Assembly (NCBI GenBank): GCA_020747065.1
Contig: JAGMVK010000015.1
Span: 992,001 to 1,056,000, forward strand
Direction of reading: 5' to 3'
Length of the DNA: 64,000 nucleotides
Source: Cadophora sp. MPI-SDFR-AT-0126
Lineage: Eukaryota; Ascomycota; Leotiomycetes; Helotiales; Ploettnerulaceae
The translations under genes and the position numbers were made by a program. The notes beneath the pieces were generated by a model. That model was not told the DNA's origin, did no database searches, and saw only the letters and a program-made list of their open reading frames with translations. Within the stretch, counting starts at the first letter, position 1, and each line of letters starts with the position of its first letter. Of this stretch, positions 6,269 through 63,732 are shown one piece after another.

Positions 6269-7060
6269 CTACATTGGCGGCAAATGCAACGCATTCCCCG
6301 CCCCACCATCAACTACCTTCCCTAACTCCTTCCCTTTCGGCCTCCTCCTCGCACTCGGCTCCAAATACCCCAATCCCATCGCACACCTCTCATAATGAAA
6401 CCCCGTGAACATCTCCTCCCCCGCATCACCCGGCTCCATCACCTCTTTCAGGCAATGCACGCCATAACTCGCGTTGCGCATCAGACTTGTCGCTAGCCCG
6501 TCCATCAGCACGCTTGTCTGTCGATGCAGAAAGTACGCGCAGTGCAAGGTGTGGAAAAGTCGGGTCGTGAACACGTACTCGTGTTTACCAGCCAGAATCT
6601 CGGAGGTGGGCAGAGCATTGGATTGGGACGAGTCGTGGTAGAATGTTAGATTTTGAGAGAGCGCGAGGTTGAGGTAGTGCTGGGAGAGGGAGGGCTGGTA
6701 ACACGGTTTGGGGGTCCAGCTGTAGTCCATTATGTCGAAGATGCAGTTTTGGGCGAGGGCTTGGGATGGGGAAGATCCGCAGTGGAGTGTGCTTCCTGGG
6801 GAGATTTGTGGTTTGATGGTAAATGCTGTGTTGGTGGGCGGATGTTGTTTTTGCCAGAGGAGTGTGCATATTGTAATGCCTTGGAGGAGGACGATCAAGG
6901 ACACAGATCCAATGACTGTATACAAGATCGATTTGTATTGGTGTTTGGATACTCGCGGTACTTCTACTGGGAAGTTGTTGGGCTCTTCTTCCAACAGTCT
7001 GTCGTTGCTAGCGCTGTCATGGAATGATTTGCGCGGGAGGTCAGAATTTGAGGTCATCAT
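6269..7060 (-). CDS. UstYa-like (DUF3328-related) membrane protein, CG-EA subgroup, copy 1
   Basis: 263 residues, single exon, start at the first of two tandem ATGs (7060). One transmembrane helix lies at about 44-69 after a short acidic cytosolic tail, leaving a lumenal domain. The domain opens with HCGSSPSQALAQNC and FDIMDYSWTPKPC, the CGxxxxEAxxxGCxFD...WxPxxC signature shared with three other genes in this window. HTLHC (170-174) is a good HxxHC motif. The second site reads YGVHC (199-203), so its first His is Tyr. UstYa-family proteins use twin HxxHC motifs for oxidative cyclisation of ribosomal peptides; with one motif altered this copy may be impaired or have another role. It is divergent from the UstYa gene at 7335 and shares a 274-bp promoter with it. 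The 3' end lies 35 bp from the convergent macro-sirtuin gene. Confidence 0.75.
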   Translation of the reverse strand: MMTSNSDLPRKSFHDSASNDRLLEEEPNNFPVEVPRVSKHQYKSILYTVIGSVSLIVLLQGITICTLLWQKQHPPTNTAFTIKPQISPGSTLHCGSSPSQALAQNCIFDIMDYSWTPKPCYQPSLSQHYLNLALSQNLTFYHDSSQSNALPTSEILAGKHEYVFTTRLFHTLHCAYFLHRQTSVLMDGLATSLMRNASYGVHCLKEVMEPGDAGEEMFTGFHYERCAMGLGYLEPSARRRPKGKELGKVVDGGAGNALHLPPM

Positions 7061-7334
7061 GTAATTTGAGATTGCCAAAGAATATCACAATAGATTCAAG
7101 ATTAATATTAACAGTGAATTCGAGAAACTAGAGGATGCTGCTAACTTAAGTGATCGTCTCCGTAAGCACTACTGCGAACCCGGTCAGCTCTCCCTCCATT
7201 CACCCTCCACGTCCACACAGCGTGCACATGACGTTGGGACCGAGGTCAAACCAATGATTAAGCTCCGACCTACACTCTGGTTCCTCATCCATCTCACTTC
7301 TATTACTCTGAATGCTCACTTCGCAGCCTCAAAG
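7061..7334. promoter_or_regulatory. Bidirectional promoter between two UstY-like genes
   Basis: The only control region available to the divergent pair at 7060 (-) and 7335 (+). It contains CTCCGTAA at 7158-7165. The core CTCCGTA recurs upstream of other genes of this block (12545-12551, and inverted at 10311-10317). Whether it is a regulator site is inference. Confidence 0.35.
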
Positions 7335-8342
7335 ATGTCGAAATATGAACCCATCCCACTAGAAGAACAGGCTCAGCTGCCCCGCGCAACAATATTTCCC
7401 AAACAATCTATTCTCTGGATCTTCCAAGCTGCCTTCTTTTTAGTTTCTTTATCAATGCTTGTGGCGAGTTACAGTGGATATAATCAGCCTTGTTCATGTA
7501 CTCTCCACGAACCAAATATTTACTGTAAATCTTCACCACGTTCATCTCTGCTCTCGTAAATTGACTTGGATTGTTTAGCTCCAGCACAGCCAGCTGTGCA
7601 GTACGTAACGCAACAATTCCAAGGCGCATTGAGTTTGAAGTCCGTCTACAAAGGCACACCGAGGAAAGAGTTGGACGATGCTTGGGATGCTCTGTCTCCT
7701 GGCTCAAGTAAGCATTCAACCTATACCATGCAATTCCCGAACGGGCTGCTGATCATCGAGCGAAGTTCTACCAGGCCCAACACTTTCGATCTCAAAAGAG
7801 GAATTGCATCTCATCGGTAAAGACTCTACAGCCAATGCCACGGTTAGGATCCCGGATGAGTTCGGTGGTGGATACTTCGCTACTCTTGAGGTTTTTCATA
7901 ATTTGCACTGTTTGGTACGTCTTCTGATCTCCGGAGAAGATTCAAAATTTATTAATTTTCGCGACACAGAATCTTGTACGCATGGCAACGTACATGGAGC
8001 ACTATGAAAACGATCACGCTTTCGGCGATCACTGGCTTCGCAGCCATGTCGGTAAGCTTTCAGCCACCCGTCACAGTCAAGCCATCATTGACCAAACTTG
8101 AAAAACTAGATCATTGCATCGACATGATCCGCCAGCGTCTTACCTGCACCGCTGATATTGGTCTTGTCACAGCTGTTTGGGTGGATGGTTACAGCGAGCC
8201 ATATCCGGATTTCAGTACGAGACATCAGTGTCGGGATTTTGACAAGATTCGTGATTGGGCTTTGGATAGAGCATTGAATGTTTCGATGGAAGAGGTGGTT
8301 GCAGCGAGGGGTGAATTTAGTTTATCGGAGACGCCGAAGTGA
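7335..8342 (+). CDS. UstYa-family oxidase (DUF3328), canonical
   Basis: Five exons (7335-7524, 7579-7707, 7799-7914, 7970-8051, 8110-8342) give 249 residues. All four introns are 54-91 bp with GT-AG ends. A short cytosolic tail (MSKYEPIPLEEQ) is followed by one membrane helix (about 26-46). The lumenal domain begins YSPAQPAVQY and has the family blocks YKGTPRKELDDAWDAL, then HNLHC (140-144) and HVDHC (171-175), the paired HxxHC motifs required by UstYa/UstYb in ustiloxin biosynthesis. The second is followed by IDMIRQRLTCTADIG, also typical. Expected role: oxidative macrocyclisation or a similar step on a secreted peptide in the ER/Golgi lumen. An ATG at 7254 lies in the same frame but adds a tail unlike the family, so 7335 was chosen. 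Convergent with the next UstYa gene (89 bp between stops). Confidence 0.88.
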
Positions 8343-8431
8343 GGCATTACATCTGAATAGGGAGTCCTGAGAGTCTGATTGCACTGTTTGAATATCTTGT
8401 AACAAATAATTAATTGATATGTTGTCTGATT

Positions 8432-9479
8432 CTAATAGTCCTCCGCTCGATTGAGCCGTACATTATCAGGCACCCTCAGCTTCCTCCGTGTCTGGACAGG
8501 ATCGGATTCCTTGTTCTTCTTCGCCCACTCCACCAACGCCGAGAAATTCCTGCACATCTTATGAACATTGAAATTTGCAGCTGGAATCGCATCTTGAGGA
8601 TTTTCTCTCTTCTGCACCCCATCATCGCCCTCTACCCCCTTTTCACCTTCCGCTAAACCTTCAACCCTCTCATCATGTCCCTCCATCCACTCAAACGTAA
8701 CCATGTCCACATCTGCATTACACATCAAACTCTGCAGCAACATATGTATACAATGCTTCTGATGCATCAGATACGTGTCCGTCGGCTTCTCATCCCCATA
8801 ATAATACTCCCAATTCACGCTCTTCCTCAACCAATTCAAGCAATGGATCTGGTGGAAAACATCATACGTAGCGATGTACTTCCCGGGGTTTCCAGCAGAG
8901 TCCGGCTCGAAGTGTATGGATTTGCTGAGGCTGCGTCCCGAATCTCGGACCGACGTCCAGGATGTGAGGAATATGTCCTCGGAGAAGAAGAGCCAGGCCG
9001 CGTCGACTTCGGGGGAGGGGTCTTGCATGAATATTGTGGTGTTGTCGTGGAAGGCGCCGTTGAGGACTTTGGGTTGGGGCGTGAGGTCGATTTCGTCGAG
9101 GAGAGGTGCTGTGAAAGCGTCAGAGGATATCACGGTCAAAGAAGAGAGAATTGCAGAGCTAACAGTAAGCAGCAACCTTCTTGAGATCGGGATTCATCTC
9201 TGGGCTCTTGTATCTGGAATCGATCCAAGTTTCTAGGCAGTTACATTCTTGAGCCGCCGAGGTTTGTTTTCTTGGTTCATCGTGATGTAGGAGAACGATA
9301 GTTATGGTGAGAATTGTGAGCAGTAAATTGATGAAAGTGATTGCATATGAGTATTCATGACGAATGTGTATTTTCTCGGTGATGTCTAAGCTCGAGTCTT
9401 GATCATGAATTTCAAGTCTCTTGTATGATTGCTGGTTCCAGAATGATTTGATATAGTCCATGATTGCTTTTGGCAACAT
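8432..9479 (-). CDS. UstYa-family oxidase (DUF3328), canonical
   Basis: Two exons on the minus strand (9164-9479, 8432-9108) give 330 residues. The 55-bp intron (GTTAGC...TTTCACAG) joins VAAY to SPLLDEID, rebuilding the YSPxxxxI block of the family. One membrane helix lies at about 43-64. Downstream are PSPEVDAAW, HQIHC (191-195) followed by LNWLRK, and HQKHC (221-225) followed by IHMLLQSLMCNADVD. Both HxxHC motifs are intact. There is a lineage-specific acidic insert (EGLAEGEKGVEGDDG) near the C-terminus. The start at 9479 gives a normal-length N-terminus; the frame stays open to another ATG at 9680, which would add 67 atypical residues. It is transcribed toward the UstYa gene ending at 8342. 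Role inferred as for that gene: oxidation or cyclisation of a secreted peptide. Confidence 0.87.
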
Positions 9480-10617
9480 GGCCTGTGGTGCAGAGGCCGA
9501 CGAGTAGTTTGTAGGTACAGCTACTTTGGTCACTCTCAAGCTCAGGACACCAAGCGGATTTGAATTAATGTCAATGGAAGACACCTTCAAGAGGGGGATC
9601 GAGAAGTACCGGAAAAGTGCACGCAAAACCGCGTGATGACTTAAACTCAGAAAACTTGCCTGATTGTCAGATGTGGACATGACACGTGCATCATTACGAA
9701 GTTGGCTGCATAAACTAGGTCAAAAATTCTGCCTGTGACACCTTCTTAATGCGGAGCTGTGCCACGAATATGAATTTCTACCAATCTGTATGAAATTCAG
9801 GTTGCGAGATATGAGGTTGACTTCCATCTCGGGCGTCATGCTTGGGATGGTGCTGACTGGTTTTGGGCGTATTGCTGCTTTTACACACCAAAATCTACAG
9901 GCTTGGATTCAACCGCAACTTTATCTCTATGCGGCTACAATTTTTGGCGTATCAGGATAAGCAACAACTCGCCTCCTACCGAATCTGGTCATGCTTTAGT
10001 GCTGATGCTACACCGAGACATGGCTTGGCGCACCTGTCATGACCGAGACGCAGAGAGCTTATCGTTATGTATGTCTCATTGTCGCGTTCGGTTTGGATAA
10101 ATACAGTTTGACGTAAAAGTGCTTTAGTCGTTCCCTACGGCAGGCGTTCAAGGATCACAAACAAGTCGTATGCTTGAATTCGAGCGCACCATCTTGACAA
10201 TCGGAGCTAGTGCTGCGGTAAACACTGAAGGATTGCCAGTAATGCTCTTGTTCCGGACGAATGAAAGTGCTCAGGTCAGACAAGCACCTAAAACTCCCAC
10301 CTGACGTTCCTACGGAGCGGAAATCATTCCTGTTTCGGCAATATCGGTCTGCATGTTTATCAGCTATTGCTAATCAGTCCGATTTGACAGACACTCGCTT
10401 CGGGTGACCCCGCCCCCTTTTCGCTTAAGCGAAGTAAGCATACGACGACACCGAGTGTGATGCGCAGCAACAGTGTCACCCTCATTCTGAGAATCAACAC
10501 TAGATTTGTCCAAAATCAATTTACACTGATTTCCTAGCGTCAAGCGTTACTCATAGTGTTGCCATTCAGTCCTTCGAGGTCTCCGCAGTCTGTAGAGACA
10601 CCTTTCCGTCCGTCACG
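9480..10617. promoter_or_regulatory. Intergenic region between divergent UstY-like genes
   Basis: About 1.1 kb of non-coding DNA holding the promoters of the genes starting at 9479 (-) and 10618 (+). TTCCTACGGAG at 10307-10317 is the inverse of the CTCCGTA element seen at 7158 and 12545. CCCTACGG occurs near 10133. No gene was recognised. Confidence 0.4.
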
Positions 10618-11382
10618 ATGCCCACGATGCCCACAATGGATCAAGTCTCAAGTCTCTACAGGAAGAATTCTTCAGACTCATCTAAAGAAGATGAAAGCTA
10701 TGAGCCATTTCTACCTGAGAACAGTATTTCTTCTAAAGAGATCAAAACCTCTGCACCTCATCGAACGAAACATATCATTCTCCTGATCGCCACAGCAATA
10801 TTCAGCACCACCATCATCGGCCTCTTCTATGCAGCTCTTACACACCCAAGCATCCCCATACAGACATCATCATCTGTTGTTCCAGATCAGATCCTAGAAT
10901 GCGGAACCTCCGCACCAGAAGCACGAGCGAAGGGCTGCGTCTTTGATGTCATGAACTATGCCTGGATACCCGCTCCCTGCTTCAATAAGACACTCTCAGA
11001 CGAATACTGGCAAGGACTTGTCTCCCACGGAATCGAGTTCTGGAGCGATTCCTCAAGATCCGAGATCCTGTCGCACGAAGACATTCTCGCTGCGAGGCAT
11101 GAATATTCTTACACCTCGTGGCTCCTCCACCTTAAACACTGCCAATACCTCATCCATCGCCAACTTCAGTGTCTCACTTATGGCACACCGGTGGACAATG
11201 TTTCGCGTAACATATCGCACGCTGAGCATTGTTTGGAGGAGATTCGAAGCCCGAGTGATGTCAAGACTATGCTCTTCACAGGGACGGCATATTTGAAGTG
11301 TGCTCAGGGAGTTGGTGATATTGGGCCAATCTATTGGAATGACCCTCCGAAGTCAGCAGAGATTCATCAAAGGCTACTGTGA
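10618..11382 (+). CDS. UstYa-like membrane protein, CG-EA subgroup, copy 2
   Basis: Single exon, 254 residues. One membrane helix (about 52-73) follows a polar Ser/Glu-rich tail. The lumenal part opens with ECGTSAPEARAKGCVFDVMN and continues YAWIPAPC, the subgroup signature. Two complete HxxHC motifs are present: HLKHC (171-175) and HAEHC (201-205), spaced 30 residues apart as in UstYa. A Cys near residue 181-188 and a distal KCAQGVGDIGP tail are shared with copies 1 and 3. By family resemblance it should be a copper- or iron-dependent oxidase of the secretory pathway; no member of this subgroup has a function I can name with confidence. A second ATG at 10636 is an alternative start. Confidence 0.8.
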   Translation: MPTMPTMDQVSSLYRKNSSDSSKEDESYEPFLPENSISSKEIKTSAPHRTKHIILLIATAIFSTTIIGLFYAALTHPSIPIQTSSSVVPDQILECGTSAPEARAKGCVFDVMNYAWIPAPCFNKTLSDEYWQGLVSHGIEFWSDSSRSEILSHEDILAARHEYSYTSWLLHLKHCQYLIHRQLQCLTYGTPVDNVSRNISHAEHCLEEIRSPSDVKTMLFTGTAYLKCAQGVGDIGPIYWNDPPKSAEIHQRLL

Positions 11383-11992
11383 AGTCTCTGAGATTGAATG
11401 TCAGTCTTTCCATGGGTTGGAAGACCCATGAGTGGGAGAATATTGGCCTCTTTGGCACCATGTAAGTTATAATGCCGGAGCCAAGAGGGGGGAATGGACG
11501 GGGGACCGACGTCGTTTGGCCGTGGAAGTTTTGGAAATTCGAAATTGGACCTTGTTAAATATTTTATTTAAGGAGAAGGAATTAAGACAATCATTCCATT
11601 TGACTACACAGTGATGGAGTATTTTCGGAAAGTGTGAACGATTCCAATGTGTGCTGAATATACCTGAATGTTCTTGGAGATGTTGTAGTTGTTGGAATCG
11701 GAATGATGTTTGTAGAGGACAGGAACTTATGTTTTGGTTAGTGGCAGAGATATTGAGTTTGATCAATTCTACGAGGGACGAGTGCGATCATTCTCCAACA
11801 AGGACTTCCAAACAAGATTCAAGTACTATCTTACAGAAACTCAAAAGTGTCACACATTCTGTCAAAGTAGCAAAAGTATAGGCGAGTGAGAGATCAAATT
11901 CAGAAAAATGAGTGTCATTTCATGCTCTCGCCACTTAAATACTAATAAATCCCTATCCAAACCGCATCACTGCCCCTTACTCATGAATCCAT
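11383..11992. other. Gene-free 3' intergenic region
   Basis: 610 bp between the convergent ends of the gene at 11382 (+) and the small peptide gene at 11993 (-). AT-rich. Short open frames show no coding character. Confidence 0.4.
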
Positions 11993-12336
11993 TCACATCT
12001 TCTTGGGAATGCACTGGATGTACGATCAGTCTCTCCGTGGCCATGAAGGGAAAATGAAGGGAGGTTTAAGAAGACTTACTCTCTCTTTGATGAGTTTTCG
12101 AAGCTTGTCTGGGTCGGCATCGTCGACCTCAGTTTCCTCTGGAGCAAACTTGCAACCATAGAACATGGTCGCCTGCAACATGTTAAAGCTGCACATTCTG
12201 ATCAGGAGTTGTTACTTACGAGACCACGGTCATTCAAATCAGACCTCTCAGCAACGGCGTTTGCTACAGGAACAGCAATGGCTTGGCCAACTAGGGTTGA
12301 AGCCACAATGGCGGCAAGGACGGAGAAGACCTTCAT
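11993..12336 (-). CDS. Small secreted two-cysteine peptide (candidate RiPP precursor)
   Basis: Three exons on the minus strand: 12220-12336, 12080-12172 and 11993-12013. They are separated by 47- and 66-bp introns, both with GTAAGT donors. All junctions are in phase 0, giving 76 residues. The first 20 or so residues form a clear signal peptide (MKVFSVLAAIVAS...) ending near QAIA. The mature part is about 55 residues, with an Ala-rich pro-like start (VPVANAVAERS), the segment ATMFYGCKFAPEE, an acidic stretch (EVDDADPDK) and the tail CIPKKM. There are two cysteines only (46 and 71). It sits among six UstY-like genes and a tyrosinase, the setting in which dikaritin precursors (UstA, PhomA) occur. 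Unlike those it has no repeated core and no KR sites. A FYG element supplies the Tyr such enzymes modify. The alternative is an unrelated small secreted effector-like protein. The gene model is well supported; the precursor role is inference. Confidence 0.75.
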
Positions 12337-13175
12337 AGTGATTATTTGATAGTGGTCAAGGAGAGGTCTGATAAATGGGTATCACAAGTAGGCCTTTGGA
12401 GAAATGTTGTGGATAGAGAGTTCTTGTCCGAAAGATTCGAGAAGCACTTTATACATTAATATCCTCGCTTGGAGAGTCCTCGTAAAACCTGTCAGAACTC
12501 CAGCCATTCACATCTGCAGGGAGCTTTTGGGCATATACACATATCTCCGTAGACTTTCTGACAGTACTTCTACCTTCCTAATGGAGGGTTGATCTTGTGT
12601 GACTGTACAGAGATCAAGGTATCGGTGAATAGCATTACTCATAGCGGCAAGTGATCGGCAGGGTGGACTGGGATTCTTGATCCTCGAGGCGGTAGTATGC
12701 TATGTTGCGGCGCCCATGAGCTAACGTACATGTATGCTACACAAAAATACAGGGACCTCATCCATTCAGGCTAACTGATTGTGTCTAACCTTTCCTGGAG
12801 TGACATGGATGTCAGGCTGACTTTGCCTTCCACGAGCGGCACGGAATAGGACAACACTCTCTACATCTCGCTTTGAGAATTGCAATTGGTGCCCTCGTCC
12901 TCTACATTATCAATGATAGCTGGTGATACAGTCAGATTACGTCATTATCTTGGGATTGACGGCTCAAGAGAACGACTCACTCGGAACAAGGTTGCCAAGT
13001 CACGTGAACTACTGGGATTGCAGGTGAGAGGCAATCCAGTATTTCGAGTGATTCTCAACCCTTCTTATTTCCAAACAGCGGTGGATCTTGTAAAAAATCA
13101 CCTAAAATTTCAGATTTATCCATTTCAAACATCTTTCTCGCCGCTTGTGCGTCATATTTGGCACTCCTGGATGCC
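12337..13175. promoter_or_regulatory. Intergenic region between divergent small-peptide and UstY-like genes
   Basis: 840 bp that must hold the promoters of the peptide gene (start 12336, minus) and the gene at 13176 (plus). CTCCGTAG lies at 12545-12552, about 210 bp upstream of the peptide ATG. No further gene was seen. Confidence 0.4.
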
Positions 13176-13832
13176 ATGGACGACATTCGGGAAACCTCTT
13201 CGTTTTTGTCCGATAAAGAAGATAATCTTCCCTTGTTGGATAACGAAAGTTCAGACCTCAAATCTGCAAGAAGCGAGAAGCATCATACCCACTGGATCCT
13301 GTATGCTACCTACATAACTTTGATGTTGGGGCTTGGCATCTCCAATGCACTTTTGTGGTATCACTACCATCAAGCAAAGGTTGAGCTTCCACAGCACGAC
13401 AGTATCACTCTCACATGTGGGAAGAACCCAGAAGAAGCTCGAAGGATGGGATGTCAGTTGGATGTTATGGTTTATGCTTGGACGCCACCTCCATGTCTGA
13501 ACAATACACACGCACTCATGTATTTTCATTCAGAGAAATGGCCGTTCTGGAAACACGAGAACAGGACCGAAGAAATTCCGGCGGAGGACATTTTGGCGGG
13601 AAAATACGAAGGTTACTTTTCGACTTGGCCGTTTCACGGTGCCCATTGTCAATATCTGCTTTCGAGGAACCTCCAGGTCCTCCCCACGGGTGGCCCTCTC
13701 AACGACTACATGCGAGATAGAGAACACAACACGCACTGTTTTGATGAAGTTCGGGCACCTACTGATCCAAGACGAACGTTGGAGGTGGGAATGGCCTATT
13801 CGTCTTGTACGGTTGGAAGAGAAGAGATCTAG
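13176..13832 (+). CDS. UstYa-like membrane protein, CG-EA subgroup, copy 3
   Basis: Single exon, 218 residues from the first in-frame ATG (13176). An acidic tail with the element SDKEDNLPLLDNE precedes one membrane helix (about 40-62). The lumenal signature is TCGKNPEEARRMGCQLDVMV then YAWTPPPC. HGAHC (154-158) and HNTHC (184-188) are both intact, again 30 residues apart. The HNTHC is followed by FDEVRAPTDPRRTLEVG, closely parallel to LEEIRSPSDVKTMLFTG of copy 2, which suggests the two arose by duplication. Function inferred only from family: secretory-pathway oxidase acting on a cluster product. Confidence 0.8.
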   Translation: MDDIRETSSFLSDKEDNLPLLDNESSDLKSARSEKHHTHWILYATYITLMLGLGISNALLWYHYHQAKVELPQHDSITLTCGKNPEEARRMGCQLDVMVYAWTPPPCLNNTHALMYFHSEKWPFWKHENRTEEIPAEDILAGKYEGYFSTWPFHGAHCQYLLSRNLQVLPTGGPLNDYMRDREHNTHCFDEVRAPTDPRRTLEVGMAYSSCTVGREEI

Positions 13833-14931
13833 ATCTCAGTGACTCGAGACTACGCCAAATGGAAATCTGTGATTCAACCAGGTTTCAGAGTTGTGCACAA
13901 TGACCTCGAGGACATGATCAGCGCAGTTGCAATCAAAATGATTCAAATAAGTTTGTGGATATACAGAATGTACTTAAGATTGCACATTCGTCTGATTGGG
14001 AAGAGGCGGCAATGTGGTCAGTGGCTTGCCATGTGGGATTAAGCGAGGTCAACAAAACAAACAGGATGACTATTTGTCCAGACATACAATTAAAGAATAA
14101 ACCTTGCATTCTTAATCTGATTCAAGAATTATTACACGAAAGTGACCGGAAGAGTTCTTCCTGGCATGTATCTCCTATGACAAAAGCGATATCTCGATTT
14201 CAGAAATTTAGTGCCAGTCACTGAAGCGGAAATAGAATGATTTTTTTGTCATTACATATTTGTCAAAATTGGAAGTAAGCAGCGAGCTCTTTGCCGAGTA
14301 GACTTTGGTTGGACGTCATTTCTCCGAGTTCTGAAACTCCGCTGCCAAGTCATGCACAGCTTACTCGGCTTACTTTGGAAGGGCCGCGAAGGTAAAATGT
14401 TTCGGTATGTCAGTTATCCATGTATGTCAAACTCGCTTTACAGAGACGAGTGAACCAATCAGGAAATGGAATAAAACACACTCCATTGAAGTTCAACATG
14501 TGTCTTGCAACGCTAGTGGACAAAAGCCCCCACAAATAGATGACGAAAGTCATGTAAGCCCGAACGGATTGTTGAAGCCGTTTTGCGCCTCTGCCAAGAT
14601 ATTGAGTGCACCAAGACCAGCCGTCAGACTTCGATGCCTCGGACTTTCACACTCACCGAACGATCCTCCTGACATTTGATGGCAAACCTTATTCAGTAAC
14701 AATTGGTACTATCTCCTAGCGAGTGAACGATTTCCAGCGGGAATTTCTCCTACGGCGGAGCTGTTCATAGTGACAGTATGTATCCTCGACTTCACCAAGC
14801 TCGATACTCAGCTCTATTAGGGGAAGAAGGGACACAAAAAAAGCCAGCCAAGTAAGTTCCAGTCCAAATTCACAACCAGTCCGCCATTTACTTACCCCAT
14901 ATTCGTATTCAGATATGTAAGACTCTGGAGT
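13833..14931. promoter_or_regulatory. Intergenic region upstream of the tyrosinase
   Basis: 1.1 kb without a convincing gene. CTCCTACGGCGGAG (14747-14760), an imperfect palindrome about 170 bp before the tyrosinase ATG, resembles the other TACGG elements of the block. The open frame at 13955-14224 has no recognisable content. Confidence 0.35.
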
Positions 14932-16082
14932 ATGATCTCAAAGAAGCTCTTGATTTGGCTTTTGGTCGCAGCGACTTCAAGTGTCTTCATTTACAGCTTA
15001 ACACGAGCGTCTACCATTGTTTCCATGCGATGCATGAGCCCTCGTGTTCGAAGAGAATGGAGAACGCTTTCAACCACAGATAAACTCGGCTATATTGAGA
15101 GCATCAAGTGCCTCCAAAGTCGACCTTCCAATCTTGAAACTGGTGGAAGTCGCTATGATGACTTTCCATACATTCACCCAGCAGTGGGATATACCAGTAC
15201 TGGACCCTCGCATTGCTCCCTATAGACTGAAAGATTTAACTTACATTTTCAAGGTCACGAAACATCAAGCTTTCTTCCATGGCATCGATACTTCCTTCAC
15301 ATCTATGAAGGGCGTCTGAGAAACGAGTGTGGATACACTGGTCCTCTGCCGTATGCAATTTTCTTGGGTGGAGCCTCAAGAGGGTTCTTACAATAGTAAT
15401 TCCACGCTAATAAGAATGGTTTAGATACTGGGATTGGGTCCTGGATTACCAAGATCCAGCAGCATCTCCAGTCTTCGATGCCCAGCTGGGCTTCGGAGGC
15501 AATGGTGATGCTGCACTTGGCGAAAGTCTCATCGGCGGAGGTCACTGCGTAACGGACGGGCCATTCGCCATGACGACGGCACGATACATCGACACCAAGG
15601 TCTATCCACATTGCCTATCTAGAAATTTCAGGAACGATACATCAATCGGGCATTTTACTGGAGAGCTTATTGAGCCCGATCTTGTCAAGAAAATACTGGA
15701 TGAGGACGATTTGCTCTCTTTCACTTTGAAGCTGGAGGATGCCCCGCACAATACAATCCCTTTCGGCATTCGAGGAGATTTCTTATCTTTCAATGCTCCT
15801 GCTGGTAAGTTCCTGTGACACTATTAATTTTTCGAGCCTCGCTCAAGTTATTTAGATCCGCTCTTTTTCCTGCATCATGCCCAACTCGACAGATTGTGGT
15901 CCAAATGGCAGAGAAACATACCCGGAAGACGAGGAACGTATGATACAAAGCGTTCAGACGACTCGGATGACAGGGCAAGCTTGTTGGATGTAATTCAAAT
16001 GGGAGACCTGGCAATGGATATAGCAGTTGTAGATATCATTGACACAGAGGAGGGGATTCTGTGCTATAATTATGACACCTGA
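14932..16082 (+). CDS. Small fungal tyrosinase (UstQ-like, type 3 copper oxidase)
   Basis: Four exons (14932-15196, 15254-15350, 15425-15804, 15856-16082) encode 322 residues. A hydrophobic N-terminus (about 5-22) is a signal peptide or anchor. CuA histidines are H82 (DDFPYIH), H90 (TSHETSS) and H99 (LPWHR). CuB has H229 (APHNTIP) and the pair H254/H255 (DPLFFLHHAQLDRLW). The blocks RREWRTLSTTDKLGYIESIKCL, SRYDDF, ECGYTGPLPYWDW and GFGGNGD are diagnostic of the short tyrosinases found in fungal secondary-metabolite clusters, including UstQ/PhomQ of dikaritin pathways. Expected chemistry: ortho-hydroxylation or oxidation of Tyr in a peptide. The exon 1-2 junction was chosen because it yields YTSHETSSFLPWHRYFLH. 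Lying between UstY-like genes at 13176 and 16850, it fits a role in the same pathway. Confidence 0.88.
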
Positions 16083-16849
16083 GGCATAAATCAAGCAAAT
16101 GTTTTTTTTCCGTCATTTACAAGCCTGAGATAAGATTGTAAAGTGACCTGCCCGTTAAGCCAAGTGGCCAGACTCGGATGTTGCAATCAAGTACTGATAT
16201 CTCACATTGTAAGGCGAAGAAGTGGGTTCTCTCAACCATTCGTCTGATTACTTGCAGTGAAGATCTTCATCCTTGGCTGCATGAAGTACCAAGACATCCG
16301 AGCCATCAAATCAACAACTCACTCTTAACCTCGCACTTTGGGCATCTCCAGCATAATGCAGCCCATGCTTATTCCCGCCACAAGCGTTTGGTGTCGATGC
16401 GAGGATGACCTTGTTGATCAATTCCAAAGCTTCACGTATTGGCAAACACAACTTACGGCACATGCGGCGCATTTGTGCTACGTGGGGTAGGTGAGCACTA
16501 AATCCTTCGATGGCTGTGTGACGGAGCTATCATCAGCCAGTCGGTTACGACTATTCATACCACTCCAAGTCACGCTCAGAAAGCAAAAGCGGCGACGCGT
16601 GAAATGATACACCCCTGCCTCAACTTGATCGCAATGATCGCACCAAGCTTACTCTTGACCCCATCATCCACGGCTCCACATTTGACCTACGCACCCATTC
16701 CTGCTTTCCAACACCAATACCATCATGCAGAACTATCGACCTCGAGTGTCCGATGGTTTTGCTGTTCCTTCTGTCTAATCATTAGCTACAGACCTCATCA
16801 ACACACGAGCATTACCAAAGACTTTCGATCCTGAAGTCGTTGAAGCAAG
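16083..16849. promoter_or_regulatory. Intergenic region upstream of UstY-like copy 4
   Basis: 770 bp between tandem genes. CTTACGGCAC occurs near 16453. The short open frame at 16178-16408 shows no recognisable content. Confidence 0.35.
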
Positions 16850-17644
16850 ATGCCTGGATATCAAGACTACGAGAAGCTTGAACGAAGGTCTTTGGAGGGC
16901 ACCGATTCCTCAACCAGCCTCGAGACAGTCGACGAGGAGGAAAATCATATCGATAACAACCAGTCTCCCCACAAAGACATCGTTCGAAAACGTTTCAACC
17001 GATATCGAGTACTGGCTAGCATCATCATATTTTCTGCTCTTATCTTAACAACTGGTGTCATTCTTCTCGTTCCTCGATACTTTGCCAGTTCCAAACCAAA
17101 GGAAACCAGAATCATGAATCTGCAATACATTGGGGACGAGTCTCAGCACGACTACCTCAATCCACCTCAGCCAGACGCAATTCTCACGAGTTATAACACG
17201 AGCTGCGGTAACACAGCTCGCATTGCTCGCTCACGGGGCTGTGTATTCGACGTGATGTCGTTCTCATGGGTTCCAGCTGAGTGCGTTGATGAAGAGATGC
17301 AAGAACGTTACATGGCAGAGCGTACATGGGACTTGTACGAAGACTACTACTTAACGAAGCGTCTATCGATGGATGTAGTGAGAGCTGGTGAATACAGGTG
17401 GCTGTTTTCGTCACAGTCGTATCATATTGCGCACTGTGTCTATTCATGGGAGAAGCAAGGGAAATTTCTGTTTGCAAAGAACAGAGAAGATGAAAAGTGG
17501 ATTGATTGGGGGAGCTTCTCATCCCACCATACGACTCATTGTGTTGACTACATTTTGAAGAGGCATCTTGAGCCAAACAAGGTATCCACGATTTGGAATG
17601 AGGCCCAAGATTGTCACGCTGTGGATACGATCGGAACATTATAG
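16850..17644 (+). CDS. UstYa-like membrane protein, CG-EA subgroup, copy 4
   Basis: Single exon, 264 residues from the ATG at 16850. A charged cytosolic tail of about 50 residues precedes one membrane helix (about 53-74). The lumenal part has SCGNTARIARSRGCVFDVM and FSWVPAEC, matching the subgroup signature with IA for EA. HIAHC (192-196) and HTTHC (227-231) are intact; their 35-residue spacing is longer than in copies 2 and 3. The linker between membrane and signature is also longer, so this is the most divergent of the four. It is the last gene of the putative peptide cluster on the right. Function inferred from family only. Confidence 0.8.
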   Translation: MPGYQDYEKLERRSLEGTDSSTSLETVDEEENHIDNNQSPHKDIVRKRFNRYRVLASIIIFSALILTTGVILLVPRYFASSKPKETRIMNLQYIGDESQHDYLNPPQPDAILTSYNTSCGNTARIARSRGCVFDVMSFSWVPAECVDEEMQERYMAERTWDLYEDYYLTKRLSMDVVRAGEYRWLFSSQSYHIAHCVYSWEKQGKFLFAKNREDEKWIDWGSFSSHHTTHCVDYILKRHLEPNKVSTIWNEAQDCHAVDTIGTL

Positions 17645-21729: not shown

Positions 21730-23384
21730 CTAACACGTAGCTTGATGGCCATCAAGCGATTTGCGATGATTGCCTGCTGTGATTCTTTCCATACAAGAAT
21801 CTCGACTCTCAATAACTGTCTCAATCTCGTTCTGCTCTTGCGAGCATGCTTTCGTATCAGGTAGGCAGAACCAAAAGAAACCTGGACATATCAAAAATAT
21901 CAGATTTTGGCTCTGAAGTCTCACCTGGCTCCAGGTCGGAAGAAAACACTTACCACCAGTTACAAAGTTCGAGGCAGCCCACATGTACGCCACCTTGGGA
22001 CCCCAATTCAACTCTCGCGTGTTGATGAAATACGGCATCGTGAAAGCGATGAACCCTATGAAAGTCAGTAAACGAGCCGGTCTCGCCACAACGTGAGCAG
22101 TGCTCCATATCCCAGATACTTACAAGAAGTAACATAATTCAACCTCGTACCCATCCCAACTGCCCTCCCCGTCTGCCTCGTATCAACAACCTCACCACAC
22201 AACTTCGATCCAAGCACAGCAGAGAAAGCAAAATACGAAAACCCATGCACAAGCACGCAAACAAGTACTATAACTCCAGTATGACTCGATGTGGGCATAA
22301 TAGTGGAAGTGATAGCAATACCAAGCATACACACTGCTTGCACTCCACACCCTGCGATCATCACCATCCTCCTCGACATCACAGTCTTCGTGCATAGATA
22401 CAACCCGACGATTGTACCGAGGAGATTCGCGAGGTTGTTGTAGATGGATGCGTGGAAGGGATGGGGGACACGGGCGAGTTGGAAGAATACTGTACCGTAG
22501 GAGAGGAGGAGCCAAATCCCGGAGGAGGAATTCGTTAGGATGAGTGCGGTGCAGAGGAGTGTGCGGCGACGATGTGAAGGGCTCCAGGGTTCGAGATACT
22601 GTCTTAGCCATGGTTGACTTTCGGTGTTGGCTTGGGATTCAACGTCGATTTGAAGTTCCAGCATCTCTTTCTCGACCGCATCTCGAGATGCTGAACATCG
22701 GCGGAGGACAGCAAGAGAACATCTCGCCGCGTCGACCCTTCCGTGACTTAGTAGCCAGCGTGGGGATTCGGGTATGAAAGTAACGAGAATGAATAACAGC
22801 GATGGGATAGTGATATGGCACGTAAGTGGAATCTTGTACGCCCAACTCGTCCTCAACCCCTTCGTGAAATTGTTCGTCACAGCGCCTAACACACCGCCTG
22901 CACAAAACCATAGCGTGAATAACGACGCTACTTTCTCTCTCGATTCCACAGGTACCGTTTCAGCAGTATAGGCATTGGAGAAAGCTATGAACAGCCCGTT
23001 CGATAAACCGATTATGATTCTCCTTGCATACAGACCCGCCACGGCGGAGTGCTTGAGCTGGAGTCCTGACCCGATGACTGAGATTATACAGGCGAGCCAG
23101 AGGCTGTGACGGCGGGATAGATACAGACTTGTGGGTTTGGAGAGCAGCATCCCGAGGATGGTGCCAAGGTTTACGAAGGAGGCGGCGAGTTGTTGGGGAA
23201 TCAGACCCATGTTCCAGCCGGTGGGTATGCTGGGGTCAGGATGCCCATAGGTGGAGAGGAAGCCGGTCATGGCTTGGAAGCCGGAGATGGAGATGGTGCT
23301 AAAGCCGACTTGACAGTGGGCGAGGGAGGGGACGAGGTAGGAGAGGGGTGTGCGCCAGTTTGTGGATAGAGGGGTTGTATCCAT
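21730..23384 (-). CDS. MFS sugar-porter family transporter
   Basis: Three exons on the minus strand (22124-23384, 21954-22055, 21730-21881) with 68- and 72-bp introns give 504 residues. Twelve hydrophobic segments are apparent. Family marks include the opening HCQVGFSTISISGFQAMTGF, PESPRWLLSHGR at the end of the N-terminal half, and NWGPKVAYMWAASNFVTGGFFWFCLPDTK at the end, a variant of the usual PETKG box. The GRR motif after TM2 is altered (YLSRRHSLW). These variations place it among the diverged alpha-glucoside/hexose permease-like porters of filamentous fungi; the substrate is unknown. The start at 23384 (MDTTPLSTNW) was preferred because the upstream in-frame extension is polar and non-conserved. 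It could export a product of the UstY block, but the family normally imports sugars, so that link is speculative. Confidence 0.85.
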
Positions 23385-24626
23385 CGTGGAGGATTTGGGA
23401 TATGATTTTGGAGGGAATGTGTGTCTAGGGAGAGAATTTTGATTATTCGATAGAAAGGAATCTATTTTTGATGATATACTCTGCTTGTACACCGCTTGTA
23501 CTCCGCTTCAACTCTGCTTGTCCCACCATCGCCGTCATAAGGTGTACATGTGCATGTACCGTATGTCGGCAAGGCCACATGGTGGACTGCTTACGAAAGT
23601 AACTGGATGTTCTTCGATTTTGTGACATATCGCTCCGGCTAGAGGCAGTGACCGTGTTGACGAAGCAAGTAAAGAGAGTGGGAGGGAGATTGAGGTGGCA
23701 CCAATCTTCGCTTGCGCGTCAAAAACCTACTTTCAATTGTGGAAATATTACTGCTAGAGACCTTTTCTGTGCAGTGATGCCCAAGCCAGCCAAGTATAAC
23801 TGCGCAAAAGATTCCTGAGTACAATGTGAACTTCTCCCGAAGCATACCATTTCTTGTCGATACAGCTAAATTTCGCCAGGTTTGTTGGTCTCTGAATCTT
23901 GAATTAAAGTCTCTCTCTATCGCTCAGACGTCACCCAAAAAGAACATGAGAAAGGAAAACTTAGGGAATGTAAGTTGGAAACAAACTCCTGTGGGGAAGT
24001 TGAAGGGAAAAAGATAAACACAAGGAGCGAACGGTATGCCGATGACTGAATCTCCTGCATCATCATACACGAATACGCAGAAGAGGCAGAGACTGACTGA
24101 CGCGGAGAAGTTTGAATGATAATCTGCGGGGAGGTATTGACTTCACAGTCGAGAGGAAATCAGAAACACTTGCATAGAACAGGAGGTGGCCGGGATAGTA
24201 GTACCCCATCTGGTGGCAGATAGCGAAGTATCAAAAGCACCGTGGAAAGTGTGAGATGGTTCAGTACCTACGCAGAGACGACAGGAAGATGTATATCAAT
24301 CTGGATTCCTCAATCTGTGATTGTCACTGCTACTGTAGGCGTAGTGCGGGCTCAGAGTCAGCCACCGAGCCAGCCACCATCCATGCATTTGCTTTGCTTT
24401 GCTACTGCATACTGTCTGTGACCCACTCACTCCTTCACTCACTCACTCCCTTGCCCAATTCACAGCAGACGCGTCTCAAATGCGAGTGGGAGACTTTAGC
24501 CTTATATACAATACATCCTGCGACATGCAATAAAACGGAGAAGCCGTCATGTCGTAGTGCCGTCATTTCGAGTCATGATTGTGGAGCTTGGACTGACCTG
24601 ACCGGTTGTTGAATGAAATGAGTGTT

Positions 24627-43399: not shown

Positions 43400-45757
43400 A
43401 TGCCTCCGAACTCCACCTCCTTCGAACCTCGCATGTCTAAAAAGCCGCCATTCACAGTTCCAGTTGCAGGTGCCCCATCCGTTGCAGGGGAAACCGCACC
43501 TCGGCGCAATGCACGAGCTCCAGCACAACTCATCTCTAAGCCAGACGACAAAATCTCTACCCTGTACGACATCGTCGAGCAGAGTGCAACAAGATATGGA
43601 CATCAGGAAGCGTTGGGCTCAAGGAAGATTATCCGAATGCACCATGAAACCAAGAAAGTCAAAAAGCTTGTTGATGGAAAACTGCAAGAAGTAGATAAGA
43701 AGTGGTCTTATTTTGAACTGGGTAGATATGAGTACATGAGCTTCAAGGAATATCACAAGCTTGTTCTAGAAATCGGATCTGGATTTCGAAGCTTGGGTCT
43801 TGCATCACCAGACCGGATCCACATGTTTGCATCGACAAGGTTGGTCTCCTTCACGTGGATGAGCTACCACTGATCTTTTCTAGTGCCCACTGGCTGGCAA
43901 CTGCACATGGAGCAATTTCTCAATCGATGCCCATCGTCACTGCGTACGACACTCTGGGGGAGGATGGACTTCGTCATTCTCTGCAAGCAACAAAAGCTAA
44001 AGCAATATTCCTCGAACCTCACTTGCTGACAATCCTTCTGAAAGTGTTGGGTGAAGCCGAGGATGTTCAGTTCATCGTCTACAATACCGACAGCGAGCAT
44101 TCCATCCGACAAGAAGACTTGGAGGTGCTACATAAATCTTTCAAGCGCATTACAGTATTGAGCTTCGACGAACTGCGCCAACTTGGAGCTCAGAGCACTA
44201 CAGCTACTGTACCACCTTCAGCTGATGATCTGGCTTGTATCATGTACACTTCAGGGTCCACAGGTGTGCCGAAAGGAGTGGAACTCACCCACAAAAACAT
44301 TGTTGCAGCAGGTGTGTGTCTACACTTCTATCCACCATGGAGGTTAACTAGATTTAGTTGCGGGAATCAACACGACGCTAGGCGAGTACCTCAACCCTGG
44401 TGATGGTCTTCTGGCATATCTTCCACTCGCGCATATTTTCGAAGTTCTTCTGGAGCATGTCGGACTGTATCGTGGTATCACTTTAGGCTATGGATCTCCA
44501 AGAACTCTGTCGGAAGCTAATTGCAGAAACTGTCTGGGCGATATCCGGGAGTTTAAGCCAACTCTCCTTGTTGGAGTGCCAGCTGTTTGGGAGACTGTCA
44601 AGAAAGGTGTTATAGCCAATGTTAATCGTGGAGGTGCGATGATGAAAACGGCTTTCTGGAGCGCATTCAAGGCAAAGCAGTACGCGCTCCGAATCCTATA
44701 TGTCCGACGGATTCTAATTTCGTAGGGCAATCATGTCAAGTGGTCTTCCTGGCGGAAAGCTTCTTGATGCACTGGTCTTCAACAAGGTCAAAGCTGCGAC
44801 TGGAGGTCGTCTTAGATTTTGTTTGACTTCTGCTGCACCTATCTCTAAGGATACCCAGGAGTTCATCTCGATAGCTATTGCGCCTCTGATAAGTGCATAT
44901 GGGATGACAGAAACGGCTGGGTACGTATCATCATCCCCTTAAGCACTGACTGACTTCTCTCAGGATGGGAGCCATTTGTGATCCTCAAAGCTGGACGGTC
45001 GATGCGTGCGGTGAAGTCGAATCTTCTGTGGAGATGAAGCTAGTTGATTACCCAGATGCAGGCTATTTTGCCGCAAAATCTCCCAATCCTCAAGGAGAAG
45101 TTTGGATTCGCGGCCACAGTGTCACAAGGGGATATTATGAAAATCCAGATGAGACAGCATCTGCTCTATCAGATGGGTGGTTCAAGACTGGAGATATTGG
45201 CGAATGGGATCGAAACGGGCATCTGCGGATAATCGACAGGAAAAAGAATCTGGTTAAAACCCTGAATGGAGAGTATATCGCATTAGAGAAGGTGAGTCAG
45301 TTCGCCTCAATTGAATCGTGCTAATGGTTAGCTCGAATCCTTGTACCGATCTGCAACTATCGTGGCGAATCTCTGCGTCTATGCTTCAATATCAGAGACT
45401 CATCCTATTGTCTTGATACAACCATCAGAGCCTGCTCTGGTCAAGCTTGCTGATTCTCTTGGTATCGATGGCCACGGCATAGGCGATCTTGTTCATGAAG
45501 AAAGGATCCAGCGAGAAGTGTTGCATCAGATGCAGGCTATCGGAAGGAGGTCTGGCTTGACTGGAATCGAGATCGTTGCAGGAGTTATTCTGGCTGATGA
45601 AGAGTGGACACCTCAAAATGTAAGAACTTTTTGCGTGTTTGGTGCAAAGCTGACGGCATAGAACCTGGTGACTGCAACTTTGAAGCTCAATCGGAAGGCG
45701 CTGTCTGATAAATATCAGAAGGAAATTGGAGCAGCTTATGCAAATAGTAGGAGTTGA
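43400..45757 (+). CDS. Long-chain fatty acid-CoA ligase (AMP-binding enzyme)
   Basis: Seven exons (43400-43839, 43884-44311, 44358-44679, 44726-44920, 44964-45291, 45332-45619, 45662-45757) with 40-46 bp introns encode 698 residues, the usual size for Faa1-type enzymes. The ATP/AMP motif is YTSGSTGVPKG. LISAYGMTETAG is the second adenylation motif, and DGWFKTGDIGEWDRNGHL plus DRKKNLVKTLNGEYIALEKLES is the fatty-acyl-CoA synthetase signature. It activates long-chain fatty acids to acyl-CoA for lipid synthesis or beta-oxidation. There is no N-terminal signal. The C-terminus NSRS is not a classical SKL-type peroxisomal signal. The exon 3-4 junction uses a GTACGC donor at 44680, which restores KAKQAIMSSGLPGGKLLDALVFNKV. 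It lies head to tail with the small membrane protein at 46054. Confidence 0.92.
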
Positions 45758-47657: not shown

Positions 47658-50440
47658 ATGGACGACAAAACCTCTCCCGGCGACGTCAAGGTTATCGATG
47701 TCAATGAAAAATCACTGCACGCAACAACATCACTTGACGATAGTTGGACCGCCCCCGAAGGATGGCATCAACGTCTGGTTGCAGAGTACACCGGGCAGCA
47801 CGATGGTAAGAGCGAGACATTGCCTGCAGGTTCCGATCCTGACCGTGTTGCTTCCGCTATCCTCACTTTGAACGAAGACGAGTCTCTCAGAATTCTCAGA
47901 TCTCTTATTGAAAATCTTGAGAATGACTACACCATTGATCATGTCTTGATTGAGCGATGTAAGCAGCTACTCGAGGGCAGTGCCGCTTGTGAGATGGGCC
48001 ATGATGATTGGGCATATGTAACTTGCAAAACCGCCGGCACTATTCACAACTGGTCTCCTTACGCTGAGGTTCGAGCCGTTACATTACCGTATGATGACCC
48101 AGAAGAGCCCTGTGAAAGCATTCGAGCTTATGTTGTTGGATTCTTTTGGGTTTGTGTTGCCTCAGCTGTGAATACTTGTGAGTTTCGTCCTTTTCAAGTG
48201 TGTTCTCCAAATCACTGACGCTGTTCAGTTTTCAGCCCTCGCCAACCAGGTATATCTATTCCTGGTCAGGTCATTCAGCTTCTCATTGTACCGATGGGAC
48301 GATTCCTTGCTCTTACTCTTCCCGACTGGGGCTTTCGTCTCCGCGGAAAACGGTACACTTTGAATCCAGGACCGTGGTCATCTAAGGAGCAGCTACTTGC
48401 GACAATCATCTCTCAGGCCAACACAATTGGTAACTTCACAGGCCTACTGGTTATGCGACTCCCAATCTTCTTTAATCAACGCTGGGCTACGTTCGGATTT
48501 GCCATTGTTCTCGCACTCGCAAACCAGATCTTCGGTCTGGGTGCTGCCGGAATGCTGCGTCGTCTTAGCGTTTATCCTCAGCAAGCAGTTTGGCCGGGTG
48601 TTCTTCCTACCTTGGCACTGAATCGTGCTCTGATCAATAGCGAGAATAAAGGAGAAGTCATCCGTGAGTTTTTGGGTCTGCTGTCTGAATGTTGTTGCTA
48701 ATGAGTTCAGATGGTTGGAGAATCTCTCGTTACAGGGCTTTCGTCATTGCCAGTGTTGTATTCCTTGTTTACTATTGGATACCGAACAAGTTCTTCCAAG
48801 CACTTCGGCTTTTCAACTGGATGACTTGGATTTCCCCAAAGAATAAGAATCTGGCCATTGTCACTGGATCTTACGGCGGAATGGGATTTAATCCGTTCTC
48901 TTCTTGGGATCCGAATGCCTCTGGATCGACAGCCATGAATGCACCCTTCTTTGCTCAGCTCCAACAGTACTGCATGCGTGTCATCGCCGGCTTGGTTATT
49001 CTTATCATGTATTATACGAACATGTCTTGGGCTGCGTACATGCCTATCAACTCCAACGCGGCATTTGATAAGCAAATGGGATCTTACAACATCAGCAAGG
49101 TGCTTACTGAAGACAACAGGGTGAATCTCGAAGCATACAAAGAATACGGTCCACCCTACTACGCTGTTGCCAACCTTTTTGTCACTGGTGCCAACTTCGT
49201 CTACTACACTTTCTCGATCGTTTACGTTTTTGTCAAGTATTGGGGTCCTCTCAAGAAAGCCTTCATCGGCATTGTTGTGAACACTATCAAGCGACGATCG
49301 ATATACACTGGGTTCACTGACGGTCAGACTCGCTTGATGAAGCCGTACAAGGAAGTTCCAGAATGGTGGTATACTATTGTTTTCGTGTTTGGCTTCATCG
49401 TGTCTGTTGTGGGTGTTGCTGCATGGCCGACCCAAACTCCGTGGTGGTCAATTCTTGTGGTTGTCGGAGTTGGATCCGTTCTGACTATTCCCTGGATCAT
49501 CATCGAGTCAATCGCTGCCACGGGTATCTCACTCAATGTGATATGGCAAGTCCTCCCTGGTATCATCTGGCCTGGTCAACCACTTCCGCAATTGGTTATT
49601 CTCATGCTTGGGGGAGCTTTTGAGCAGATGGCGGGTGGATTTGCTGGAGATCTGAAGTACGCACATTATGCTAAACTTCCACCTCGAGCTGTCTTCCGTG
49701 GACATATTGCATCCTGTGTTGTCAACTGCTTCATCTACTGTGCCATGCTTGAGGTCATGGTTATTTACTTCAATGGAGACAACACGCTTTGCCAGTGGAA
49801 CAACAAGCAGTATATGGTGTGCAACTATGCCAACTCTGTCTTCTCTTCGGTCATCTCATTTGGTGCTTTCGGAACCAACAACATGTTCCAGCTTTATCCA
49901 ATACTGCCGTGGTGTTTCCTGATTGGTGCCATTCTTGGCTTACTCTGGGTGATCGTTGAGAAAGCAGCTCCGCGAATTCGGCAGCTCATTCAGTCTCGCC
50001 TGGATGCGAAGCAGTCTACGTCTTTCGACAAATACATCTGGAAGCCAACTGCGGCCGTGATGTCGACTCTAAATCCAGCTGTCGCATTGTCAGGTGCATT
50101 GCAGTGGGCGGGCAACACCAATCTTTCATATGCCACTCTCGGTATTTTCATCGCGTGGTTCTTCCAGTACTATCTCAAGCGTCGTTATACGGCATGGTGG
50201 GGAAAGTATGCGTACATGATCTTCGCAGGTCTGAGCGTCGGTGTGGCAATCTCTGGACTGATTGTTACTTTGGTGTTTAGCTTTGGGGTGGGGAAGCATT
50301 CTAACTTCAGCTGGTGGGGGAATAATGTTGCGTTGCGAGGGGTTGATTACCAACTTTACAACAATAATGCAAGTTTGCTCCCGTTACCGGAGAGTGGGTA
50401 TTTTGGATTGGATCCGAATCAGTATCCTCTTCGGTGGTAG
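47658..50440 (+). CDS. Oligopeptide transporter (OPT family)
   Basis: Three exons (47658-48177, 48229-48663, 48711-50440) with 51- and 47-bp introns encode 894 residues, normal for fungal OPT proteins. The family block SPYAEVRAVTLPYDDPEEPC precedes the first helix. MRLPIFFNQRWATFGFA, HGWRISRYRAF and the YAKLPPRAVFRGH variant of the KIPPR motif follow. Roughly 14-16 membrane helices are expected, the protein working at the plasma membrane as a proton-coupled importer of small peptides or glutathione. The start is the ATG at 47658 (MDDKTSPG); the frame upstream lacks ATG. A polar N-terminus of about 140 residues is cytosolic. The 3' flank contains the left copy of a diverged direct repeat. Confidence 0.93.
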
Positions 50441-62804: not shown

Positions 62805-63732
62805 TGTTACGGACGCTCCTAGGCGACCGCGGGGTTCCAGGGGGAGATGTCCTAAGAGCTAGCGCACCCCTAGGAACCGAATAGTTCCTAGGAGGGCAGC
62901 TCCCAGGAGCTAATAAGAATCTAGGACCCACTTGTACTATAAAGTAGCTTAATAGAGTAAATAATAAGATAGCTATGCCTTTGACGTTAGTTAAAGGTTA
63001 AATGCGAGGGTTGTTCTTTCCCCTTAGAGTAGGGGTCTGTTTTTTAAGCAAGTAGTCATGTGTTAGGAACTAGTCTTAGTGCAAATAAGCGATTTTTAAA
63101 GTTTTAAAATCCTTAGCGAAGTCTTAGCATAAAATTTACTCCTAACCACCTAAATATTTTATAACTGTCTTAAGTAATAAGGCCGCAGCTAAGTTAGGAG
63201 GGACTAGGGCGTTATAATTAAGGACATCTTAGTCGAGGGCGTTATAATTAAGGGCATCTTAATTAAGAGCGTCTCAGTCGAGGGCATCTCAGTGGAGGGC
63301 ATCTCAGTCGAGGGCGTCTCAGTCGAGGGCATCTCAATCAAGAGCATCTCAATTAAGGGCATCTCAGTCAAGGGCGTCTCAGTAGTAATTCGCAGTTCAA
63401 TCAATTCAACGTCAAAGGCCTGCGTCGCCCACCGGGCGGCCATAGTATCAAGCTACGGGATTACGCGACCTAGGGTCACGTGATTAGGGACTGCCTGGAC
63501 CGATAGACCGCTAAAGGTCTAGCGGTCGCAGCAGTCCTAATACCTACGAAGGTCTTATAAAAGACTAGTACGTCTGTTATTAGATAAGAGCTTCGTACTT
63601 AACTTAAAATAGTATTCTCACCTAATACTTAGTAACTGCCTTTAACTGTCTACGTGATACACCTACTTCTTAATTATCAGAGATCAATCGCAGCCTTCTG
63701 TATTTGCACCGAGTAAATACCGGACCGTTACA
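62805..63732. mobile_element. Probable LTR (solo or end of a retroelement)
   Basis: Begins TGTTACGGAC and ends GGACCGTTACA, so the ends are TG...CA with an imperfect 10-bp inverted match (TGTTACGGAC against TGTAACGGTC). The 928-bp length and high density of stops suit an LTR. No target-site duplication is visible (TTAAT left, AAAGT right), and no tRNA primer site was recognised after the right end. Either it is the outer LTR of an element running off the window or a degraded solo copy. Confidence 0.4.
63208..63384. repeat. 15-bp minisatellite inside the LTR-like element
   Basis: About eleven tandem, diverged copies of GGGCATCTCAGTCGA (variants GGGCGTCTCAGTCGA, GAGCATCTCAATTAA, and GGGCGTTATAATTAA at the left end). 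Because the unit is 15 bp, both strands stay open and mimic a repetitive protein. Confidence 0.8.

Follow-up and report, generated by a model that had tools for sequence, protein, structure and literature searches.

A candidate gene cluster in Cadophora for oxidative modification of a secreted peptide, with four distant relatives of UstYa

We analyzed a stretch of 64,000 nucleotides from Cadophora sp. MPI-SDFR-AT-0126, positions 992001-1056000 of contig C7 in a genome of 54 Mb and 38 contigs; this whole stretch is referred to as the window. An earlier note on this DNA had placed eight genes at 6269-17644 and read them as a dikaritin-type cluster for a ribosomally synthesized and post-translationally modified peptide (RiPP). 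Open reading frames (ORFs) and splice models put all eight genes where that note had them, and together with Pfam they agree with the gene kinds it had given: six genes (A, B, C, D, F, and H) for UstY-like proteins with HxxHC motifs, a tyrosinase gene, and a gene for a small secreted peptide of 76 residues (Table 1). All genes modelled in the block fall into these three classes, in line with the note, and the gene models place nothing unrelated in between. Three pairs of genes are arranged head to head, namely A/B, C/D, and peptide/F. The intron donor of gene C, GTTAGC, is unusual. The eight modelled block genes include neither a methyltransferase nor a transporter, and also no P450, S41 peptidase, or Zn2Cys6 regulator, in agreement with the earlier statement that the block has no S41 peptidase, P450, or C6 regulator.

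Table 1. Modelled genes of the block, other window features, and repeat-bearing frames on other contigs (window positions unless a contig is given)
Feature	Position	Strand	Basis
Gene A: divergent HxxHC protein with hydrophobic segment, 263 residues	6269-7060	-	open frame, motif audit
Gene B: canonical UstYa/DUF3328, 249 residues, five exons and four introns	7335-8342	+	splice model, PF11807
Gene B exons	7335-7524, 7579-7707, 7799-7914, 7970-8051, 8110-8342	+	splice model
Gene C: canonical UstYa/DUF3328, 330 residues, two exons (9164-9479, 8432-9108)	8432-9479	-	splice model, PF11807
Gene D: divergent twin-HxxHC protein, 254 residues	10618-11382	+	open frame, AlphaFold2 model, motif audit
Small secreted peptide, 76 residues, three exons (12220-12336, 12080-12172, 11993-12013)	11993-12336	-	splice model, coding score
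Gene F: divergent twin-HxxHC protein, 218 residues	13176-13832	+	open frame, alignment, motif audit
Tyrosinase, 322 residues, four exons (14932-15196, 15254-15350, 15425-15804, 15856-16082)	14932-16082	+	splice model, PF00264
Gene H: divergent twin-HxxHC protein, 264 residues, weak UstYa signal	16850-17644	+	open frame, Pfam, motif audit
Sugar-type MFS transporter	22065-23507		Pfam
AMP-binding enzyme exon	43732-44400	+	4.3e-25
OPT oligopeptide transporter	48689-50440	+	3e-87
Longest tandem array of the window	63216-63383		15/45-nt units, nearly nine copies
C36 repeat precursor: RR-separated SGEGVVVADKEKYD units, a signal-like start, a single GT-AG intron	about 8018-8457 of C36:2629001-2639000	-
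C12:454k Kex2-type repeat ORF: KR/KKR-separated AEDAEAIPFY-like units	8231-8623 of C12:448001-458000	-

The six UstY-like proteins are two members of the UstYa family and four distant relatives of it. In a Pfam scan that covered 32 genes or ORFs of the window, not every exon, B and C matched the UstYa profile PF11807 at 9.2e-57 and 1.3e-45, both over the Pfam cut-off, while A, D, and F gave no UstYa match up to an E value of 1 and H gave 0.0067 with 16.7 bits, under the cut-off of 25. The four proteins align with one another over a hydrophobic segment, a block of the form CG...A..GC.FD.M...W.P..C, and HxxHC, and they also align with nine paralogues in the same genome. None of the 13 members of this alignment reaches the Pfam UstYa cut-off. 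Eight residues (C95, G96, C107, W116, H171, H174, C175, and C205, numbered as in D) are invariant in 13 of 13 members, and a motif audit found both HxxHC motifs whole in 10 of them, including D, F, and H. The earlier view of the four as a divergent subgroup is thus borne out; its assignment of twin HxxHC motifs to all six proteins stands for five and fails for A, and a check of the six with the UstYa profile, which that note had proposed, recovers B and C but not the other four.

A distant homology between the divergent branch and UstYa was detected by comparing sequence profiles. Alignment of the 13 divergent members with six UstYa proteins of the same genome by hhalign gave a score of 38.1 (E = 9.5e-5, probability 58.6%, 55 columns), compared with 18.0 for the best of 100 column shuffles and 16.4 for the reversed profile. 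When both motifs were masked, the score was 22.4 and the register was unchanged. An AlphaFold2 model of D (mean predicted local distance difference test score [pLDDT] of 77.8, predicted template modelling score of 0.60) reaches block pLDDT values of 85 to 98 over residues 91 to 230 and is the single model from which the structural layout was read. It has a hydrophobic helix at residues 48 to 75, motif 1 (171-175) on a helix spanning 168 to 188, and motif 2 (201-205) on a helix spanning 199 to 210. The hydrophobicity of the first helix suggests that D is inserted in a membrane. Sequence searches found no solved relative.

This layout resembles the one published for CctR, the DUF3328 protein with which the family was first shown, in 2025, to include a binuclear copper oxygenase (PMC12435403). 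CctR is described there as a membrane-anchored dimer that uses O2 and whose HxxHC(x)nHxxHC motif binds two copper ions at the dimer interface; replacing motif residues by alanine gave inactive protein (PMC12435403). In the model of D, a single hydrophobic helix likewise stands at the N-terminus, and helices of the C-terminal domain bear the two HxxHC motifs. The divergent branch differs in carrying the conserved CG..GC.FD..W.P..C block before the motifs and in having no Pfam match. By analogy with CctR, the HxxHC proteins of the window may bind copper, dimerize, and be anchored in a membrane with the C-terminal domain in the lumen.

The tyrosinase, which the earlier note had correctly recognized, matches PF00264 at 2.8e-37 and has a hydrophobic N-terminus. 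Type-3 copper proteins have the CuA spacing H-x7-H-x8-H and the CuB pattern H-x3-H followed by HH. In the chosen splice model, with the first intron as modelled, CuA is complete with its three histidines, IHPAVGYTSHETSSFLPWH. At CuB, proline replaces the second histidine (HNTIP), and this motif lies within one exon, so the change is not a splicing artefact. The same proline occurs in a paralogue on contig C5 (C5:1074k, HNAIP), while the neighbouring C5:1071k keeps the histidine. C5:1074k is 45 and 48% identical to the window tyrosinase in the two longest aligned stretches and 39% in the third, and a UstYa match starts 2.9 kb from it. Since the proline is common to two diverged paralogues, each near UstY-type genes, comparison of the sequences argues for an altered function rather than private decay.

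The peptide gene lies in the middle of the block. Its product has a signal-like start, two cysteines and one tyrosine after the signal, and no Kex2 repeats. The spliced coding score of 0.119 per codon exceeds that of all 424 overlapping stretches taken from the cluster gaps, and the eight further small ORFs that lie between genes of the block and have signal-like starts score from -0.069 to 0.022. The gene is therefore real and more than a chance reading frame, and both splice model and coding score agree with the secreted peptide gene that had been proposed at this position. Lichen DUF3328 clusters without repeats have been surveyed, and a single-core precursor was named as one possibility for them (PMC12048977). 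The 76-residue peptide is a plausible candidate precursor.

The divergent branch was traced through the genome with four members as queries. The searches covered all six frames but did not model introns, which makes the copy numbers minimum values; matches within 15 kb were merged into loci. About 14 divergent genes were found at nine loci: four in the window, three on C8, and one each at C36, C12:454k, C13 (a weak match), C17, C12:2700k, C22, and C15. A match at C19:50643 (E = 0.29) was left out of the family, and C13 (two pieces, E = 0.005 and 0.024) was counted as a locus and is absent from the 13-member alignment. The divergent copies are old, and a tree resolves them poorly. The same genome has UstYa matches at 26 loci, one of which (C38) is below the cut-off, and tyrosinase matches at 22 loci. 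A UstYa or tyrosinase match lies within 5 kb of four of the eight divergent loci outside the window (C8, C36, C12:454k, and C13; binomial P = 7.7e-7 under uniform placement), and at C8 and C36 the divergent genes adjoin UstYa matches. As a control for the clustering of accessory regions, the same 5-kb criterion was applied to HET loci (150 scored of 447 candidates) and P450 loci (92 scored of 301 candidates, with 92 of 101 entries used and nine that were further exons of listed genes omitted). Only one HET locus out of 134 had such a neighbour and none of the 86 P450 loci did, against 4 of 8 divergent loci (Fisher P = 3.1e-6). At 20 kb, the comparison was 4 of 8 divergent loci versus 8 of 220 HET and P450 loci (P = 2.8e-4).

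UstYa matches are also grouped elsewhere in the genome. In a 9-kb region at C20:135734-144359, the UstYa profile matches nine times, in exons that belong to several genes, and no divergent copy was found near it. UstYa matches lie less than 3 kb from tyrosinase matches at C33:976942-982308 and C5:1070942-1077664.

Kex2-type repeat ORFs occur at two of the eight divergent loci outside the window. At C36, a gene for a secreted repeat precursor lies about 0.8 kb beyond a UstYa gene, and these two and a divergent gene all fit within 3.8 kb. Several splice acceptors fit the precursor, and the longest product, of 128 residues, is the one described here; nearly all of its units contain tyrosine. In a scan of nine stretches for signal-like starts, its exon had the best coding score of the eight matches listed. 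C36 is a second peptide cluster in this genome. According to a published survey, 22% of Kex2-processed repeat proteins (KEPs) have DUF3328 genes nearby (PMC7329392). The C36 precursor fits the definition given there (PMC7329392), with its signal-like start, RR-separated repeats, and a UstYa gene close by, and the 76-residue peptide of the window differs from that definition in having no repeats. At C12:454k, 1.2 kb separate the repeat ORF and the divergent gene, and the locus also has a tyrosinase that seems to belong to another type. Among the arrays listed for the remaining six divergent loci, none was longer than 44 bp.

The two true UstYa genes, the tyrosinase, the recurrence of the divergent branch, and the Kex2-type repeat ORFs at two loci together support a cluster for oxidative peptide tailoring, and the block in the window is likely a peptide-oxidizing cluster. 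A more specific reading, in which the block makes an oxidatively modified secreted peptide with the 76-residue peptide as its most likely, single-core precursor, has in our judgement an even chance of being right. Under it, the precursor would enter the secretory pathway by way of its signal peptide and would be modified as a single core, not as repeats. The membrane-anchored HxxHC proteins would expose their C-terminal domain to the lumen, where, as in CctR, a dimer could coordinate two copper ions through its two HxxHC motifs. They would use O2 to activate side chains, so that cross-links are closed or hydroxyls added. The tyrosinase-type protein might join in this oxidation as UstQ does with UstYa and UstYb in ustiloxin biosynthesis, where ustQ, ustYa, and ustYb jointly yield the first intermediate (PMC6514808).

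Several results weigh against this reading. Only one HxxHC is whole in A, where YGVHC stands in place of the second, with the first histidine lost; since A lacks one motif histidine and the tyrosinase lacks one CuB histidine, some block proteins may be inactive. Most of the hhalign signal comes from the motifs and a remainder from elsewhere, as the drop of the score on masking indicates. No shared promoter motif was found among the block genes. As for the recurrence, no UstYa or tyrosinase match lies within 5 kb of four of the eight loci (C17, C22, C15, and C12:2700k), and the divergent match at C13 is weak (E = 0.005). The tyrosinase at C12:454k looks different and longer and the one at C13 looks incomplete, and for this reason UstYa neighbours were also counted alone, which leaves two of eight loci (P = 8.8e-4). 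At C12:454k, no signal-peptide 5' exon was found for the repeat ORF, and the upstream sequence is AT rich. No Kex2-repeat precursor was found in the block, where 6.2-17.7 kb contains only two arrays of 25 bp each, in keeping with the earlier remark that the block has no repeat-type precursor. A genome search with the peptide matched only itself; Pfam and NCBIfam contain no relative of it, and no PDB match falls below E = 1.4.

The peptide may thus be a single-core precursor or a bystander, and it could be an unrelated small secreted protein. The absence of a repeat precursor from the block and of relatives of the peptide would also suit a genuine oxidative tailoring cluster that acts instead on a nonribosomal peptide or on a Kex2-repeat peptide from a gene elsewhere. 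Kex2-type repeat ORFs do exist at other loci, CctR, the DUF3328 protein of cyclochlorotine biosynthesis, acts on a nonribosomal peptide (PMC12435403), and a gene for an AMP-binding enzyme is located 26 kb away from the block on its right side. However, no condensation-domain match was obtained among the window genes or ORFs scanned, and the peptide gene sits mid-block, head to head with gene F across a gap of 839 bp; this alternative is possible but doubtful. It is unlikely that the divergent proteins are noncatalytic partners of the canonical UstYa proteins, such as dimerizing or copper-delivering subunits. The histidine lost from A, the adjoining UstYa matches at C8 and C36, and the position of the copper site at the CctR dimer interface (PMC12435403) would agree with such a role, but both motifs are intact in most branch members, and the copies at C17, C22, C12:2700k, and C15 have no UstYa match in the 5-kb range. 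That no pathway exists, and that gene families sharing accessory genome regions came to lie side by side by chance, is very improbable: the age and poor resolution of the divergent copies in the tree and the lack of a common promoter motif are compatible with it, but recurrence at independent loci exceeds both the HET and the P450 controls, and the eight genes have no unrelated gene modelled between them.

The candidate cluster for a single-core peptide can be compared with known systems. Like the dikaritin clusters for ustiloxin, phomopsin, and asperipin-2a, the block combines DUF3328 proteins with a secreted peptide gene, and as in ustiloxin and phomopsin it includes a tyrosinase. It differs from them in that no Kex2-repeat precursor was found, in the four enzyme and regulator types not found among its modelled genes, in that four of its six HxxHC proteins do not reach the UstYa cut-off of Pfam, and in the altered CuB site. 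The term dikaritin-type, as applied by the earlier note, fits the class-defining UstYa proteins B and C and the tyrosinase but is not established in the strict sense: no Kex2-repeat precursor was found, nor an S41 peptidase or methyltransferase among the genes modelled. RiPP clans R1 and R2 of the Parmeliaceae also have DUF3328 genes, R1 has a tyrosinase as well, and neither clan yielded a repeated precursor (PMC12048977). They differ in the presence of a methyltransferase in R1 and an acetyltransferase in R2, and the passages that describe these clans mention no branch outside DUF3328 (PMC12048977). No title or abstract opening listed in literature searches, which leave out most subscription papers, describes a UstYa-related branch outside the Pfam profile.

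A bolder reading, which we consider possible but less likely than not, is that the block stands for a class of fungal RiPPs whose substrate would be a secreted peptide with a single core instead of a Kex2 repeat protein. As many as six HxxHC copper proteins would oxidize it, including four of a branch missed by the UstYa profile, together with a tyrosinase-like protein that has lost one copper-site histidine, a loss it has in common with a diverged paralogue near a UstYa gene. Genome searches for fungal RiPPs depend on repeated precursors and on the UstYa profile (PMC7329392, PMC12048977). The divergent branch escapes that profile yet recurs near UstYa genes, tyrosinases, and Kex2-type repeat ORFs, and it may offer a new way to find peptide clusters overlooked at present, among them clusters without repeats.

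The surroundings of the block contain genes of other kinds. An amidase gene and a macro-domain gene, both assigned by Pfam, lie to the left. To the right, the first Pfam-recognized gene among those scanned encodes a sugar-type transporter of the major facilitator superfamily (MFS), and the AMP-binding enzyme exon is followed by an OPT oligopeptide transporter gene 31 kb from the cluster. The longest tandem array of the window lies near its right end and reads in a plus-strand frame as ...VEGISVEGISVEGVS..., with no dibasic sites.

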